DNA of 52,881 nt from Spirochaetaceae bacterium (lineage in GTDB: Bacteria; Spirochaetota; Spirochaetia; DSM-2461), in NCBI GenBank assembly GCA_029210985.1, contig JARGFR010000003.1:1-52881 (forward strand), written 5' to 3'. Shown one piece after another: positions 10,239 through 29,380 of this stretch. The position numbers and the translations under genes were made by a program. The first letter of the stretch is position 1; each line of letters starts with the position of its first letter. The notes beneath the pieces are model-generated. The model made no database searches. It was not told the origin of the DNA and was given only the letters and a program-made list of their open reading frames with translations.

Positions 10239-13200
10239 CTAGATAAACCAGGATACGCCGCCCTTGATGAGGGGCTGCTCGGTTTCCATACCCGGTACGT
10301 CGATATACGTCCCTTTTCGCCACCGTTCGCTGTGCCCCATCTTCCCCAGGATGCGTCCGCAGGGCGAGAGAAGCGCCTCGACGGCGCCTGCCGAACCATT
10401 CGGATTGAACTCACCGGCCATGGTGGGACGTCCCGCCATATCGCAGTAGCGGAAAGGAATACGGCCTTCACCTTCCAGTCGGGCCAGAAGCTCAGGCGAT
10501 GCGGAAAAACGGCCTTCTCCATGGCTCACCGGTACGCTGTGAACGTCCTTCGGTCGGATGAGGGACATCCATGGACTCGATGACTCCGAGGCTACGGTTC
10601 GAACAATTCTGGCCACGTGGCGTCCGATTCGATTACGAACCAGCGTCGGCTCATCCGGACCCGGCACTCCCGCTTCTCCGTTGATGAGCCAGCCGCTCTT
10701 TATCAGCGCCTGGAAACCGTTGCAGATTCCAAGAATCAACCCATCCCGGTCCAGCAGGCCGCGAACAGCATCGGCGATTCGCTCATGCCGCAGGATGGCG
10801 GCGATGTATTTTCCGGCGCCGTCCGGCTCGTCTCCCGCCGAAAACCCTCCCGAAACATAGAGAATCTGGCTTCTCCTGATATCCGCGGCCATTTTGGAGA
10901 GCGCATCGTCCAACCTGTGAGGATCTCGATCCAGCAGGATATGTTCCAACGGCTTGGCACCGGCCCGCAGGAAAGCTCGGCGGGCATCGTCTTCGCCGTT
11001 TGTTCCGGGAAACACCGGGATGCAGACCCTGGGACGTCCGCCGCCTAAGGACGGGCCGACATTTCCAGAGCGGAGGGCATTGCCCGGCGGCCGCGGCGAC
11101 CGCAGCGAGCGTGTCGACAAGGGTTTGGCCGTCTCCAAATGATCCTCCGAGTTATCTTCAGGCCACACATCCGCAAATGTCTTCCGCCAGGCTTGCTCGG
11201 CTTCTTCCAGGGGCAATTCTCCGCCGGGCCAGCGTATAATCGAATCGGCGATGCTGCGGCCAAGAATAGAAACCGATGCTCCCGCGGATTCGGCATCCCT
11301 TCTCAGCTCGTCAGGTGAAAGATCGGAGGCGATGATGATGGAGCCGTAATCCGACGCGAAGGGCCGTTTACCGGAAGTTTCATCCAAATCGAATCCGACG
11401 GCGTTTCCCAAAGCCATCATCACCAACTTTGACGCCCAGCCCCCGGCGCCCACCGTGGCGGCGGCCTTCACCGAATTTCGTTTGTTCAACGATTCCAGCC
11501 AGTCCCAGGAGGTTTCCAGGCCGTGGAAGTCCGGCGCCTGCGATTCATCGGCAGAGAACCGGAAAGGAGGCGTGAGAGCAAGGGTGAGATTTCCACCCGG
11601 GAGAGCGGCACCCACCGCTAGACGCCTGTCCATCCAGGCGGCGGCAAAGGCGATGATGGTTGGCGGAACATCCAATTCCTCGAAGCTGCCGCTCATGCTG
11701 TCTTTACCGCCGATGGCCGGCAATCCCCAGCGTCTCTGCACCGTCAAGGCGCCCAGAAGCGCCGCCAGAGGCGCTCCCCAGGATTCCTCACCTCTGTCGG
11801 TCCGGCCGAAGAACTCCTGCAGGCTGAATCGAGTCCGTCTCCAGGATCCGCCGGCGGCGCACATCCTCGCCAGGGCTTCGATCAAAGCCGCCTGGCCTCC
11901 CCGGAAGGGACTGATTTCCGCCAGATCAGGATCGAAACCTACCGTCATGATGCCGGCGGTCTCCACATCGCCGTCGACAGGCAGAAGATGGACCGAGGCT
12001 TCCGCAGGCGTGGCCTGCCGGACTCCGCCGTGAGGCGCCAATACGGTTGTTCCTCCGACACTGGCGTCGAATCGCTCCATTAAACCGCGCCGTGAAGCGA
12101 CGGCCGGAGAACAGAGATGTTTCAGCAGACTCTTAACCGTCAAAGCGTCGGAATCTGCCGCTTCGGAAATTGAATACCCTGCCCCGGACGTACCGCCGGC
12201 AGGAATCAGTGCCCGGGCTCTCCGGCGCACACCGTTTGTATCCAGGAGACGACGGTCGAGGTCTATCACCAACTCGCCCTTCCATGTCATCCGCAGCCGC
12301 CGTGACGATGTTACCCTGGCTGCCGCCACCGCTTCGAGGTTTTCCTCTTCGGCCAATCTGATAAAAGAAACGGCGTCGTTTTCCCGAACCACCACCGCCA
12401 TGCGCTCCTGGGACTCGGAGAGGGCCAATTCAAGACCGTTGAGTCCCTCGTACTTCACCGGCAGGGCATCCAGGTTGATGTCCAAACCATCGGCCAGCTC
12501 GCCGACGGCAACAGCCACGCCCCCGGCGCCGAAATCATTGCAGCGCCGGATCAGACCCGCGGCATCGGGATTCCGGAACAATCTCTGGAGCTTGCGTTCC
12601 TCGGGGGGGTTTCCTTTCTGCACTTCGGCTCCGGCTTTCTCCAGTGAGCTGCCGTTATGAGCCACAGACGACCCGGTGGCTCCGCCGATTCCGTCCCGGC
12701 CGGTTCTGCCGCCCACCACAATCACAACATCGCCGGACTGAGGGATCTCCCGGACAACATGGCCGGCCGGGGAGGCACCCATGACCGCTCCGCATTCCAG
12801 CCTCTTGGCTTCAAACCCCGGATGATAGTGCTCCCTGACCACGGCGCAGGCCAATCCCAGCTGGTTTCCATATCCGGCATACCCTTCGGCGGCGCCGTGA
12901 GCGATGAATCTCTGGGGAAGTTTCCCGGGACGGGTCTGTGCCGCATCCCTTCTCGGGTCGGCGCCCCCGGAGACCCTGAGCGCCTGATGGACATAGGCCC
13001 GACCGGAGAGCGGATCCCTCACGGCCCCGCCGAGGCAGGTGGAGGCGCCGCCGTACGGCTCGATTTCCGTGGGATGGTTGTGGGTTTCATTTTTAAAAGA
13101 GAGCAGCCACGGATGGTTTTCTCCATTGATTCGGGCATCCACCTTCAAGGTGCAGGCGTTGATTTCCTCGGAAACGTCCCAGTCATCCACCAGGCCCATA

Positions 13201-14045
13201 ATTCTCGCCTCCCTGGCGGCGATGGTGGCCAGATCCATGAGCGTCTTGGGACGGTCTGAACGGCCGCATACGGTCCTGGCCTCGTCCCATTGGGAGAGTG
13301 CTTCGACGATATCGTCCGAGTCCCCTCCGGCGGCGATGCGAATGGATTCCAATTCTGTTTCAAACGTGGTGTGTCTGCAGTGGTCGGACCAGTATGTATC
13401 CAATGCCCGAAGTTCCGCCAATGTGGGATCGCGAGATTCCTCCCGCGCAAACCAATCCCGGATAAAAGCCAGATCTTCGGTATTCAACGCCAAGCCGAAA
13501 TCGGAACGAAGGAGATCCAAATTTTCTTTCGTCTTGGAAACAAATCCGTCCAGGCGGGTGATTGAGAGGGGTTCCCGGGAAGACCTGCCCAGAGAGGATC
13601 TATTCAGGTCTTTCGGGCGGGAGTCCACTGGGTTGATCAGCCAGGAGCGGATTTTTTCCATCGCTTCATCATCTAAATGACCGGAAAGAACGAAGATGTC
13701 GGCACGCTTCACATCGATATCCCGTTCCGGCCAGAGGAGCCGAAGACACCGCTCCGCGGAATCCGCACGCTGGTCGAACTGACCAGGCAGATATTCCCTG
13801 GCGATAAAGCGGCCCTGGGGAACGAAAGATGGAAGGAGACGATCCGTGGGCGCCTCATAGAGAATACCCGCTGCGGCGGAGCTGAGTTCCCGCTCCTCCA
13901 ATCCGGATATTTCATAGAGGCTGATGAGACGAAGGTGTTCCAGATCCGGCAAATGCAGGACAGATCGGAGCTCGGCCGCCAAGCTCATCGCCTCAACGTC
14001 CCGACCACTCTGACGTTCTACATATATTTGGTGATTCTGACTCAT
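10239..14045 (-). CDS. purL: Single-chain phosphoribosylformylglycinamidine synthase (synthase plus fused glutaminase domain); start placed at internal ATG 14045, ORF-track start 14123 considered less likely
   Basis: About 1268 aa; NETHNHPTEIEPYGGASTCLGGAVRD; GATase domain VCIPVFPGTNGEDDA... LGICNGFQALIKSG; ATG at 14045 follows GGGGGAAGG, whereas 14123 abuts the riboswitch P1. Confidence 0.93.
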   Translation of the reverse strand: MSQNHQIYVERQSGRDVEAMSLAAELRSVLHLPDLEHLRLISLYEISGLEERELSSAAAGILYEAPTDRLLPSFVPQGRFIAREYLPGQFDQRADSAERCLRLLWPERDIDVKRADIFVLSGHLDDEAMEKIRSWLINPVDSRPKDLNRSSLGRSSREPLSITRLDGFVSKTKENLDLLRSDFGLALNTEDLAFIRDWFAREESRDPTLAELRALDTYWSDHCRHTTFETELESIRIAAGGDSDDIVEALSQWDEARTVCGRSDRPKTLMDLATIAAREARIMGLVDDWDVSEEINACTLKVDARINGENHPWLLSFKNETHNHPTEIEPYGGASTCLGGAVRDPLSGRAYVHQALRVSGGADPRRDAAQTRPGKLPQRFIAHGAAEGYAGYGNQLGLACAVVREHYHPGFEAKRLECGAVMGASPAGHVVREIPQSGDVVIVVGGRTGRDGIGGATGSSVAHNGSSLEKAGAEVQKGNPPEERKLQRLFRNPDAAGLIRRCNDFGAGGVAVAVGELADGLDINLDALPVKYEGLNGLELALSESQERMAVVVRENDAVSFIRLAEEENLEAVAAARVTSSRRLRMTWKGELVIDLDRRLLDTNGVRRRARALIPAGGTSGAGYSISEAADSDALTVKSLLKHLCSPAVASRRGLMERFDASVGGTTVLAPHGGVRQATPAEASVHLLPVDGDVETAGIMTVGFDPDLAEISPFRGGQAALIEALARMCAAGGSWRRTRFSLQEFFGRTDRGEESWGAPLAALLGALTVQRRWGLPAIGGKDSMSGSFEELDVPPTIIAFAAAWMDRRLAVGAALPGGNLTLALTPPFRFSADESQAPDFHGLETSWDWLESLNKRNSVKAAATVGAGGWASKLVMMALGNAVGFDLDETSGKRPFASDYGSIIIASDLSPDELRRDAESAGASVSILGRSIADSIIRWPGGELPLEEAEQAWRKTFADVWPEDNSEDHLETAKPLSTRSLRSPRPPGNALRSGNVGPSLGGGRPRVCIPVFPGTNGEDDARRAFLRAGAKPLEHILLDRDPHRLDDALSKMAADIRRSQILYVSGGFSAGDEPDGAGKYIAAILRHERIADAVRGLLDRDGLILGICNGFQALIKSGWLINGEAGVPGPDEPTLVRNRIGRHVARIVRTVASESSSPWMSLIRPKDVHSVPVSHGEGRFSASPELLARLEGEGRIPFRYCDMAGRPTMAGEFNPNGSAGAVEALLSPCGRILGKMGHSERWRKGTYIDVPGMETEQPLIKGGVSWFI

Positions 14046-14125
14046 TCCTTCCCCCGAGGAATTCACGGGAGAATTTCCAACTCGACGGATTTCATCGGAA
14101 ATCCACTGATTCGAGGAGGTCATTC

Positions 14126-14190
14126 GCCCATAGTAGTTCGTTTACGGCGAACTGTAGAAACTCCCGCCCGTATCGCAGGATTATATGGAC
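14126..14190 (-). ncRNA. Purine riboswitch aptamer, guanine class
   Basis: Minus strand GTCCATATAATCCTGCGATACGGGCGGGAGTTTCTACAGTTCGCCGTAAACGAACTACTATGGGC: P1 GUCCAUA/UAUGGGC, P2 CCUGC/GCGGG with L2 GAUACGG, J2/3 GUUUCUAC, P3 AGUUCG/CGAACU with L3 CCGUAAA, J3/1 A-C-U (C74 equivalent). Confidence 0.95.
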
Positions 14191-14199
14191 TTGTTTCAA

Positions 14200-14225
14200 G
14201 CCAACTTATACCAAGAACGCTACCA
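14200..14225 (-). promoter_or_regulatory. Candidate extended -10 promoter for the purL transcript
   Basis: Minus strand TTCTTGGTATAAGTTGG contains TGG-TATAAG about 15-25 nt upstream of the aptamer; no convincing -35. Confidence 0.4.
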
Positions 14226-24841: not shown

Positions 24842-25390
24842 TCAGGCAACGCGATTGGCGATATCAACCATCATGTAATTCAGGAAGTCGTCGGCCAGAT
24901 CACCGTTCTTGCTCTTATCGGAGCGCAGGATGGTGTTCAGGCCGTAAATGATGGCCGATGCCACCGGCACGGCAATTTCAGGTCGGCGACCGGCTTTTTC
25001 AAGAACTGCCTTGAGAGTATCCCTCAGGATATTGTGGATATCGTCGGCAACTTTCTGGTATTTTGTGCCGGTGCTTCCCCCAAAGAGCGTCAACCACTCG
25101 GATCTGTGGTCTTTCTGAAGCTCTTTGAAATTCTCCAGGAGGTGATTCAACCGAATTTCCGGTTCCTCCGGAAGAGAGTTTTTCAGTGCTTTGATCTCAT
25201 CGAAGAGACCGCCGATGATGGCACCGTAAAGATCTTCTTTATTTTTATAGTATCGATACAGATTGCCCACGGTCATATTGGCACTGGATGCAATTGACCT
25301 CATTGACGCTTTTTCAAAACCATATTTCTTGAACTCACGTCTGGCGGACTTGATTATCCGTTGCCGGACCTCTTCTTTCAAAACTTGCAT
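24842..25390 (-). CDS. TetR/AcrR family transcriptional regulator
   Basis: RQRIIKSARREFKKYGFEKASMRSIASSANMTVGNLYRYYKNKEDLY. Confidence 0.92.
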   Translation of the reverse strand: MQVLKEEVRQRIIKSARREFKKYGFEKASMRSIASSANMTVGNLYRYYKNKEDLYGAIIGGLFDEIKALKNSLPEEPEIRLNHLLENFKELQKDHRSEWLTLFGGSTGTKYQKVADDIHNILRDTLKAVLEKAGRRPEIAVPVASAIIYGLNTILRSDKSKNGDLADDFLNYMMVDIANRVA

Positions 25391-25762: not shown

Positions 25763-27091
25763 TTGACCATGACGACTGTACTTGTATTCGGCACATTTGA
25801 TGTTCTCCATCCCGGTCATCGATGGTTTCTTCGGAAAGCTCGGAGACTCGGCAATCAAGTCGTCGCCGTCGTGTCCAGGGATGACTATGTCATGGAGTGG
25901 AAAGGACATCCTCCACTCTCCGATCAGCAATCCCGCATCGACGCGCTGCAAGAGTCCGGATTGGTGGATAGGGCGGTATTGGCCGACGAACGAATCCGAA
26001 CTTACGGTGTAATCGATGAAATTCGTCCCGATATCATTTGCCTGGGGCATGATCAGAAAGCCTTGAAAGACGATCTGGAACAATGGCTTACGAAACGAGG
26101 CGATGAACGGTCCGATCTGGATATTCATGTGCTGCCTGCCTGGAGACGGGGAATCTACAGCTCGACACGCCGAAATAATCTGGTTCGCGGTGCCGGACGA
26201 GACGAGTCCCCCACACTCACATGGGTTCTGTCCCTGGCTATGGTGGCGGCCATGATGATATTCGGCTTCAGCTGGGTATCGGGCAAACGGATCAGCGACT
26301 CCGGCGGTCCGGGGACATTGGCGTTCATCAGGTTCGTTATGACGACCGTCTTTTTTCTCCCTTTGTTTTTCAGCTCGGTTCCGGTAAAACTGACGGCGGA
26401 CCAGAGGCGGAGAGGCTGGATGTGGACCGCTTTCTCCGCGATGGCGATCTGCTCATACAACACATTCTTTTTCCTCGGCCTGGATGCGGGTCTGGCTGGA
26501 AAAGGCGGCCTGATTGTCACCACACTCAATCCCCTTTTCACCTTTCTGATCGTCCTCTTTATCGGGCGAAGCCGCCCGTCGACAATGGCCGTCCTGGGCA
26601 TTGCCGTCGGTGTTCTCGGCGGCATTCTTCTATTTCAACCCTGGAACTACACGACTCCGGACTGGAATGATTCGGGGAATTTCGCTTTTCTCGGTGCGGC
26701 ATTGTCATGGTCCACTCTGACGGTATTAAGTCGGAAAGCACAGCAGTACATGGGTTTCCGGCGCTTCAACATCGGACTTTACATCATCGCTGCGGGTTTC
26801 ATGCTGATTCCGGCCCTGGTTGAGACCGGTGGTGTGATTCCCGCCGATCTGGATTGGCTGTTCTGGAAAGATATGCTGTTTATCAGCTTGGCGGTGGGGG
26901 CCTTCGGCACAGGAATGTATTTCATCGCATCATCCAAACTGGGCGCATCCAGGGGAAGTGCGTTTACCTATCTTGTACCGGTGTCGGCCATACTGTTCTC
27001 CTCCATTATCCTTGGAGAAAAACCGGAACCCGTTATGCTGATCGGAGGGCTGCTGGCCGTCCTGGCGGTTATTCTGATCAATCGGCGTTAG
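25763..27091 (+). CDS. Fusion protein: N-terminal HxGH nucleotidyltransferase (RibL/TagD-like) plus C-terminal EamA/DMT-superfamily transporter
   Basis: GTFDVLHPGH...ICLGHDQKAL...GIYSSTRRNNL (complete nucleotidyltransferase, about 140 aa), then about 300 aa of EamA-like multi-TM sequence in one continuous frame. Confidence 0.85.
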   Translation: MTMTTVLVFGTFDVLHPGHRWFLRKARRLGNQVVAVVSRDDYVMEWKGHPPLSDQQSRIDALQESGLVDRAVLADERIRTYGVIDEIRPDIICLGHDQKALKDDLEQWLTKRGDERSDLDIHVLPAWRRGIYSSTRRNNLVRGAGRDESPTLTWVLSLAMVAAMMIFGFSWVSGKRISDSGGPGTLAFIRFVMTTVFFLPLFFSSVPVKLTADQRRRGWMWTAFSAMAICSYNTFFFLGLDAGLAGKGGLIVTTLNPLFTFLIVLFIGRSRPSTMAVLGIAVGVLGGILLFQPWNYTTPDWNDSGNFAFLGAALSWSTLTVLSRKAQQYMGFRRFNIGLYIIAAGFMLIPALVETGGVIPADLDWLFWKDMLFISLAVGAFGTGMYFIASSKLGASRGSAFTYLVPVSAILFSSIILGEKPEPVMLIGGLLAVLAVILINRR

Positions 27092-28110
27092 GATCTTTTC
27101 TCCGCGTAGTGGAACATGGCATCCACACATGCCCTGGCCCTGTCCATAATACCCGGATCAATTTTAATGAAATCCTCTTCCCGCGGCTCGGCCAAAACTC
27201 GCCGTATTCCCTGGAGTGAGTTGGATTTCATGTATTTGCAGAGCTGGCATGTACCGACGAAATTTCGCCCGGGCATTTCCGCTTCGATTCTGCTGATCAG
27301 ACCGCATTCGGTGAGCATCAGGTAATTCCGATTCACGTCCATGCCTTTGATGACATTGAACATCTGCGACGTACTCCCCACATAGTCGGCCTGACGGACG
27401 ACTTCGGGGCGACACTCGGGATGGGCCATGATATAGAGATCCGGGTATGCCGCTTTGAGCCGGGGAACCAGATCCGGATCGAACTCCTCATGCACGTAGC
27501 AGGTTCCTTCGGAGAGTCTGATATCTTTCTTAACGCCCCTGGAGGTCATTTCCTCAATAAGATTTCGCCCCATGAGTTTGTCGGGCAGAAAAAAGATCTT
27601 GTCGTTCTCGATGCGTTCCACGATATCGTAAACGTTGGATGAGGTGACGCAGACATCGCATTCGGCTTTGACGTCGGCGTTGGTGTTGATGTAGCAGACG
27701 TAGGTGTAGTCGGGATACTGAGCCCGGAGTGCCCTCACCTCTTCGCCGGTAATCGAATCCGCGAGAGTGCAGCCCGGATCGTCTCCGGGAATCAGGACGT
27801 TCTTTGCGGGATTCAGCAATTTGGCCGTTTCTCCCATGAACTTCACCGCCGCGAACACGATTGTGTCCTGAGATGCGGCCAGGGCATCTTTACTCAGACC
27901 GTAGGAATCGCCGACGTAATCGGCCACCGAATATATGATGGTGGGAGGAACGTAGGAATGGGCCAGCACTACGGCATTGCGGGCCTTTTTCAGATCTTCT
28001 ATTTCCTCGATGAGGGGCATGACACCTTCAACATGCGCCCTGAGATTCTCTTCTTCGACACCGAAGCGGAGTCTGTTCAGTTTTTCAAATAATTCATCGG
28101 CTGTAACCAT
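27088..28110 (-). CDS. nadA: Quinolinate synthase
   Basis: AHSYVPPTIIYSVADYVGDSYGLS, AHPECRPEV, VGTCQLCKYMKSNSLQGI. Confidence 0.94.
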   Translation of the reverse strand: MVTADELFEKLNRLRFGVEEENLRAHVEGVMPLIEEIEDLKKARNAVVLAHSYVPPTIIYSVADYVGDSYGLSKDALAASQDTIVFAAVKFMGETAKLLNPAKNVLIPGDDPGCTLADSITGEEVRALRAQYPDYTYVCYINTNADVKAECDVCVTSSNVYDIVERIENDKIFFLPDKLMGRNLIEEMTSRGVKKDIRLSEGTCYVHEEFDPDLVPRLKAAYPDLYIMAHPECRPEVVRQADYVGSTSQMFNVIKGMDVNRNYLMLTECGLISRIEAEMPGRNFVGTCQLCKYMKSNSLQGIRRVLAEPREEDFIKIDPGIMDRARACVDAMFHYAEKRS

Positions 28111-28243: not shown

Positions 28244-29380
28244 TTACGATCCGCTTTGACTCTTAGACCCGTTTTTCAGATTCTTCGGCGATACCAGTCG
28301 AACAAACAGCGGAGTTTTACCTTTTCCGGGCTTTCCGGGCTTTCCCGGATTTCCCATCAGCCTGGCGATGATGGAGAGATCTTCCGAGCGTTCAAGCAGG
28401 AGCCTGATCATCACCATCAGCGGCACCGAAAGCAGCATTCCCGGGACTCCCCAGATGTAGCCCCAGAAGAGCAGACCGAATATGACGGTGACGGTGTTCA
28501 GCCGGAGCCTGTTCCCCATGATCATGGGGTCGATGACGCTGCCGATGAGGAACTGCGTGACTCCCAGGAGAATACCGAGAGCCAATATGGGACCCACACC
28601 GTTGAATTGTATGACGGCCATGAAGACAGGCAAAGCCGTCGCGACGATGGATCCGATGGACGGGATATAGTTGAGCAGGAACCCCATGAAACCCCAGAAA
28701 AGGGCGAATTGAAGCCCGAATGCCCAACAGATCAGGCCTGCCGTGAGTCCGGTGATAATACTGATGAGGGTTTTGATTCCCATGTAGGCGGAGATGCTTT
28801 CCTGAGTAAGGGCCCAGATCTGCCTGGTTTTGCCATCCTTATCCGATCCGGCCACATATTCGATGTAGCCGTGATAGCGGGTGGCTCCGGACAGGAGAAT
28901 CAAGTAATACACGAGGAAAAGAACTGATGAGGACCCCACATTCCCCAGGGTGCCGAAAACAGTACCGAGAAGTGAGGCGACATTCTTCGGAGAGATGATT
29001 TTGTCAATCTCGACCCAAAGAAGATCAACGTTGAATCCCGGAACAGTGGCGGCCAACCATTCAATTGATGTGTTGATCTTCCTGTAGAATTGCGCGGCGA
29101 GAAAATCCTTATCCTGAATGAGCTGCTCCACTGTTCCGCTGATGAGAGTGAAAACCAGAAAGAGGAGTCCTAATGTGGTGACCGCCACAAGCAGAGTGAT
29201 GAGAATTTTGGGGATTTTTTTTCTCTCAAGGAACATCACCACAGGCAGATTGAGGATGGTGAGCAAAGAGGCCAATACCAGGGGCAGCATCAACCTGGAG
29301 AGCTCTTTGAGGACGGCAAAAATCAGAATGATGAGAAGGATCAGCAGAATATTTCGAATACTCTTCGCGTAGGTGTCCAT
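28244..29380 (-). CDS. AI-2E family transporter (PerM/TqsA-like)
   Basis: Multi-TM 378 aa; FLLNYIPSIGSIVATALPV, GSVIDPMIMGNRLRLNTVTVIFGLLFWGYIWGVPGMLLSVPL. Confidence 0.92.
   Translation of the reverse strand: MDTYAKSIRNILLILLIILIFAVLKELSRLMLPLVLASLLTILNLPVVMFLERKKIPKILITLLVAVTTLGLLFLVFTLISGTVEQLIQDKDFLAAQFYRKINTSIEWLAATVPGFNVDLLWVEIDKIISPKNVASLLGTVFGTLGNVGSSSVLFLVYYLILLSGATRYHGYIEYVAGSDKDGKTRQIWALTQESISAYMGIKTLISIITGLTAGLICWAFGLQFALFWGFMGFLLNYIPSIGSIVATALPVFMAVIQFNGVGPILALGILLGVTQFLIGSVIDPMIMGNRLRLNTVTVIFGLLFWGYIWGVPGMLLSVPLMVMIRLLLERSEDLSIIARLMGNPGKPGKPGKGKTPLFVRLVSPKNLKNGSKSQSGS

Follow-up and report, generated by a model that had tools for sequence, protein, structure and literature searches.

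A RibL-like nucleotidyltransferase fused to an EamA/DMT transporter in spirochaetes: a candidate FAD synthetase joined to a possible flavin carrier

To our knowledge, the delivery of FAD to periplasmic flavin transferases has been described for very few bacterial systems. One is the ECF flavin exporter EetB-FmnA of Listeria, which supplies extracellular ApbE with FAD produced in the cytosol; EetB (PF07456) is required for FAD export and binds FAD, and eetB often adjoins apbE (PMC9973259). In spirochaetes, the ApbE/Ftp flavin transferase handles FAD in the periplasm, where the source of the flavin has been described as unknown (PMC4767422). On the enzymatic side, FAD synthetase activity is proven for two enzymes of the RibL kind, that of M. 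jannaschii and the archaeal-type FADS of E. histolytica (PMC11423594), and on the side of uptake, RibN imports riboflavin and FMN under the control of an FMN riboswitch and has been reported only in Proteobacteria (PMC4418817). YddG and LicB, bacterial DMT carriers whose structures are known, transport amino acids and choline and carry no fused enzyme.

The window analyzed here, a 52,881-nucleotide stretch of contig JARGFR010000003.1 from a Spirochaetaceae bacterium, contains a gene in which an HxGH nucleotidyltransferase (NT) and a ten-helix EamA carrier lie on one open frame. Its parts and neighbors are these:

24842..25390, minus strand: TetR-family regulator, divergent, kept beside NT with or without the transporter (PF00440; in the slot in 12 relatives)
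25769..27091, plus strand: fused gene, RibL-like nucleotidyltransferase plus EamA/DMT transporter, 440 amino acids (open reading frame and translation, Pfam, stop-free full-length homologues, structure model)
25784..26167, plus strand: nucleotidyltransferase domain, NT (PF01467 at residues 8–135, profile alignment, Foldseek match to 3glv)
26168..26206, plus strand: linker, positively charged, low-confidence structure, RRN..L.GAG kept in same-genus fusions (pLDDT, linker alignment)
26207..27088, plus strand: EamA/DMT transporter domain, two EamA repeats, DMT fold (PF00892, profile, Foldseek)
27088..28110, minus strand: nadA (quinolinate synthase), convergent, overlapping the stop of the fusion by 4 bases, marker of the syntenic slot (PF02445, synteny)
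28244..29380, minus strand: AI-2E family transporter, syntenic marker (PF01594, synteny)

Positions 25763–27091 of the plus strand translate without a stop, and although TTG 25763 offers an alternative start, ATG 25769 is the more likely start codon. Pfam finds CTP_transf_like at residues 8–135 (E 7e-12) and two EamA repeats from about residue 150 to 440 (E 3e-32). Pfam, Foldseek and motif conservation agree on the HxGH nucleotidyltransferase fold for the first half (about 140 residues), with GTFDVLHPGH, SRDDYV...KG, CLGHDQ and YSST recovered by profile alignment and the archaeal HxGH protein 3glv as the nearest solved structure (TM 0.86 by target). In the AlphaFold model (mean pLDDT 82.6, pTM 0.65) both folds are formed, a Rossmann-type nucleotidyltransferase and a helical DMT carrier, with a poorly ordered linker between them; residues 126–146 alone are poorly placed, with pLDDT <50 at 126–129 and 131–146. 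The two EamA repeats and the ten-helix DMT fold of the second half are supported by Pfam, AlphaFold and Foldseek, the fold matches being LicB (the top match), SLC35B1, YddG and nucleotide-sugar transporters. YddG and LicB share this ten-helix fold, but their identity to the EamA half is below 20%. In DMT carriers such as YddG both the N- and C-terminal ends face the cytosol, so the NT enzyme should be cytosolic.

An initial sequence-only reading of this DNA had described one uninterrupted frame running from NT into EamA, with neither a stop nor a good start codon at the junction. Translation, Pfam and the relatives bear this out; every in-frame start codon near the junction falls inside the first transmembrane helix, and none has a ribosome-binding site. 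The architecture also recurs, as that reading had asked of it: stop-free full-length homologues are present in nine other genomes, four of the same genus (G006, G004, G003 and G005), four more of the same family (G017, G021, G012 and G013, the last with its first residues cut off by a contig edge) and one from another family (G046). The second half of the G005 protein gives no Pfam match, its EamA domain being beyond recognition. The linker motif RRN..L.GAG is common to the window and the fusions of G004, G006 and G005, and dN/dS is below 0.25 for both halves in all four pairs compared. Separate genes in relatives had been named as a sign of an assembly artefact; two relatives do have the domains on separate, overlapping genes, but many others have true fusions, and the stop-free homologues in nine genomes together with purifying selection on both halves rule an artefact out.

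The fusion occupies a slot between the divergent TetR gene and the convergent pair of nadA and the AI-2E transporter. Besides the window, the slot holds the fusion in G004, G005, G006, G012, G013, G017 and G021, and it holds NT and EamA as two genes with a 14-base overlap in G020 and G023. NT stands there alone in G011, G016 and G024, and also in G008 and G002, where neighboring genes are missing as well; NT is thus conserved irrespective of the transporter. Downstream of the fusion, genera g5 and g6 have partly different neighbors, among them a SurA_N-like gene that we judged uninformative, and the G003 fusion lies in a different genomic setting. We tried to read a function from the syntenic neighbors (TetR, nadA, AI-2E), but these are kept regardless of the transporter and therefore say little. 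In the NT tree, the NT-only genomes G002 and G008 nest within the fused same-genus group, so that loss of the transporter is likely in these two. Fused EamA copies from g1, g5 and g6 form one group in their own tree (81/81), whereas the unfused g4 copies are placed beside orphan copies from another family (80/89); EamA may for this reason have been recruited more than once, which is possible but not certain.

We consider NT to be very probably a RibL-type FMN adenylyltransferase (FAD synthetase). This agrees with the sequence-only reading and is well supported by indirect evidence: RibF is lacking, other nucleotidyltransferases can be eliminated, one relative shares an operon with riboflavin kinase, and others are fused to the EetB family. 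None of the 26 genomes of the family, that of the window included, has the RibF FAD-synthetase domain (PF06574), a lone match in G017 falling below the family cut-off; the search covered FAD synthetases of the RibF type. As a control, the same search recovered PF06574 from 10 of 14 control genomes and from the majority of the class's other families. The genome of the window encodes only three CTP_transf_like proteins, of which context and sequence identify one as NadD (beside obgE) and one as CoaD (beside rnc), leaving NT as the third. The curated HldE, TagD and CoaD models score NT far below their cut-offs (HldE, 55.2 of 181.5 bits; TagD, the glycerol-3-phosphate cytidylyltransferase, 39.2 of 165.4 bits). 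In a tree that did not include proven RibL and CoaD proteins, NT groups with nucleotidyltransferases of DPANN archaea and Patescibacteria and is split from the HldE and TagD-type rows with support of 91/94. With archaeal RibL and the E. histolytica FADS, NT shares a small HxGH nucleotidyltransferase domain, archaeal-type relatives and an occurrence where RibF is missing, but those enzymes are soluble and single-domain, whereas NT is bacterial and fused to a transporter.

The relation between NT and PF06574 extends across the class. Among 327 genomes at least 80% complete, PF06574 is missing from 25 of the 27 with a strong NT match (E <1e-40), compared with 66 of the 300 others (Fisher p 2e-13; 5e-8 at genus level; both values uncorrected for shared ancestry). 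The two exceptions, G184 and G199, which have both NT and PF06574, belong to one genus. Within family f36 the two alternate, genus g61 having NT without the FAD-synthetase domain and genus g91 the reverse. Neither the RibF domain nor a close NT was found in G010, G015, G019 and G025 of the same family as the window, nor in some other genomes.

The linkage of NT to flavin metabolism is seen in relatives of NT and not in the window itself. In locus L132 (4022–6039) the operon order is NT, a CTP-dependent riboflavin kinase (PF01982, E 1.6e-40) and EamA. The L132 contig is binned as Aminicenantes but reads as archaeal, probably a binning error. In the Spirochaetia we found riboflavin kinase of the PF01687 type in 1 of 61 genomes and of the PF01982 type in none of the 61, and, as judged from these domain searches, the FMN-making enzyme appears to be a missing gene in the class. 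In one RibF that we examined (L044:1213–2103), Pfam recognizes only the FAD-synthetase half and leaves the C-terminal part unassigned.

The joining of NT to transporters is not confined to EamA, and the suggestion of the sequence-only reading that nucleotidylation is coupled to transport gains support from recurrent fusions of NT to unrelated transporter families. In the f1 slot NT and EamA are fused or adjacent, and they are fused in G046. In the spirochaete genus g61, NT is fused to PF07456, the EetB family, at three loci (L109, L110 and L111; L110:4959–5984 and L111:4959–5984). In L110 the fusion is followed by a 205-residue hydrophobic protein with no Pfam match, possibly an ECF-T-like subunit. 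A single case in a Woesearchaeota locus (L146) joins NT to a LysE exporter. Outside the spirochaetes the link is rare, with this one fusion and the L132 operon among about 60 loci. Two further candidates from Patescibacteria were not counted: the N-terminal extension of L145 looks like a spurious upstream reading, and no domain was found in the probable fusion of L152.

A search of 61 genomes found ApbE in 54, and the genome of the window (G000) has it too; PF07456 was likewise found in 54 of 61, most fusion-bearing genomes included. The idea that EamA replaces EetB is unsupported; since EetB occurs in most fusion-bearing genomes, EamA is at best a second route beside it. EetB-FmnA is one of the nearest known systems, and its S-subunit family is fused to the same NT family in g61; it differs from the window in being an ECF system with ATPases, where the fusion has an EamA/DMT carrier, and the sections of the Listeria report cited here make no mention of a fusion to an FAD synthetase. 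At E values of about 1e-70 or lower, the EamA subfamily of the fusion is found in 25 genomes, and it occurs without NT in many RibF-bearing genomes; its own gene contexts were inconsistent and gave no function. By analogy, a nucleotide conjugate is a plausible cargo for a DMT carrier, because the fold carries ADP/ATP and nucleotide sugars (SLC35B1 and the CMP-sialic acid carriers).

The direction of transport was approached through flavin import in the same genome, whose only FMN riboswitch leads an operon with the layout of RfuABCD: a binding protein of the Bmp type, an ABC ATPase and two permeases. No FMN riboswitch was found in the window or at the relatives scanned. A purine riboswitch in the window (14111–14208, minus strand, 62.6 bits) lies at the start of the gene for a 1294-residue FGAM synthase of the PurL type (10239–14123), and in G011 one of two FMN riboswitches appears, as judged by eye, 5' of an ADP-ribosylglycohydrolase-like gene (L187, G011:C1 2133000–2141000), an unusual neighbor. 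With RibN placed in the EamA/DMT group, a placement that we take over as an assumption, the sequence-only reading had speculated on metabolic trapping of an imported vitamin or nucleotide precursor; in specific terms, a RibN-like EamA half would import riboflavin or FMN and the NT half would trap it as FAD. RibN does ease the entry of both flavins (PMC4418817), lumazine synthase was not found in the genome of the window, which therefore probably needs external flavin, and riboflavin kinase lies between NT and EamA in L132. We nonetheless think uptake improbable, given the RfuABCD-type importer already present and the lack of a riboswitch at the locus; moreover, fusions occur in genomes both with and without lumazine synthase, so that riboflavin auxotrophy does not account for the presence of EamA, trapping would normally act at the kinase step, and the fused analogue elsewhere belongs to an exporter subunit family, EetB. 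Neither mark of a RibN-type carrier, an FMN riboswitch or linkage to riboflavin synthesis genes, was found at the fusion, and the import direction and Proteobacteria-only occurrence of RibN do not carry over to it.

Two other readings would separate the carrier from flavins. NT could be a real FAD synthetase with an EamA partner of unrelated cargo, overlapping neighbors having been fused by a frameshift with the tether remaining neutral. The 14-base overlap in G020 and G023 offers an easy mechanical route to such a fusion, the EamA subfamily is found in scattered contexts elsewhere, and in several relatives the EamA half is lost or decayed while NT stays. Against these points, the NT family has joined EamA, PF07456 and LysE independently, L132 has EamA in one operon with both NT and riboflavin kinase, and both halves are under purifying selection; we hold a chance partnership to be rather unlikely. 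Less likely again, NT could be a glycerol-3-phosphate, phosphocholine or phosphoethanolamine cytidylyltransferase, or a heptose-1-phosphate adenylyltransferase, whose EamA half carries choline, as LicB does, or an intermediate. Profile matches to PCYT2 (E 5e-25), TagD and HldC structures favor this, as does LicB, a choline carrier, as the top fold match of the model, but the identity to LicB is 15% and a DMT fold match names no substrate. No equivalog model reaches its cut-off on NT, and the genome would be left with no recognized FAD synthetase. RTxGIST, the signature of cytidylyltransferases, is replaced by YSSTxxN in NT.

The explanation that we prefer, and to which we give about an even chance, is that the protein unites a membrane-tethered FAD synthetase with a transporter of flavin, the carrier most likely delivering FAD to the periplasm. 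Export of FAD is more likely than vitamin uptake because the genome already has its riboswitch-controlled importer. The cytosolic N-domain would convert FMN and ATP to FAD and PPi in the manner of RibL, replacing the missing RibF domain, for which the indirect evidence is strong. Sequence and model show a flexible, positively charged linker that joins it to the ten-helix DMT/EamA carrier; with such a tether, FAD would be synthesized right at the entrance of the exporter. We regard the cargo of the EamA half as probably a flavin and its direction as probably outward, a view that draws on the EetB and LysE fusions of relatives; by the same analogy, the carrier would deliver fresh FAD to the periplasm, where ApbE/Ftp could use it to flavinylate proteins such as Rnf subunits. 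Several observations weigh against this explanation. NT is often alone, and G005 has no recognizable EamA half, which indicates that transport is not essential to NT; the EamA subfamily also lives without NT in RibF genomes and has no consistent context; four genomes of the family have neither RibF nor NT; and no known riboflavin kinase was found in almost the whole class, which leaves a gap in the FMN supply.

A stronger form of this explanation, which we put forward tentatively, is a vectorial FAD synthase, in which one polypeptide would make FAD on the cytosolic face and release it into the periplasm through a DMT-type carrier of its own. A full-text search of open-licence papers found no report linking an NT-EamA fusion to flavins. 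If true, we would know of no earlier EamA/DMT flavin exporter; in other lineages the enzyme has partners from the EetB and LysE families. The distribution of NT suggests that one bacterial lineage exchanged RibF, otherwise the standard FAD synthetase, for an enzyme of archaeal type. A natural fusion between a transporter and the enzyme that makes FAD, recurring with transporters of unrelated families, opens FAD channeling through a membrane to direct testing and would point to new flavin carriers.
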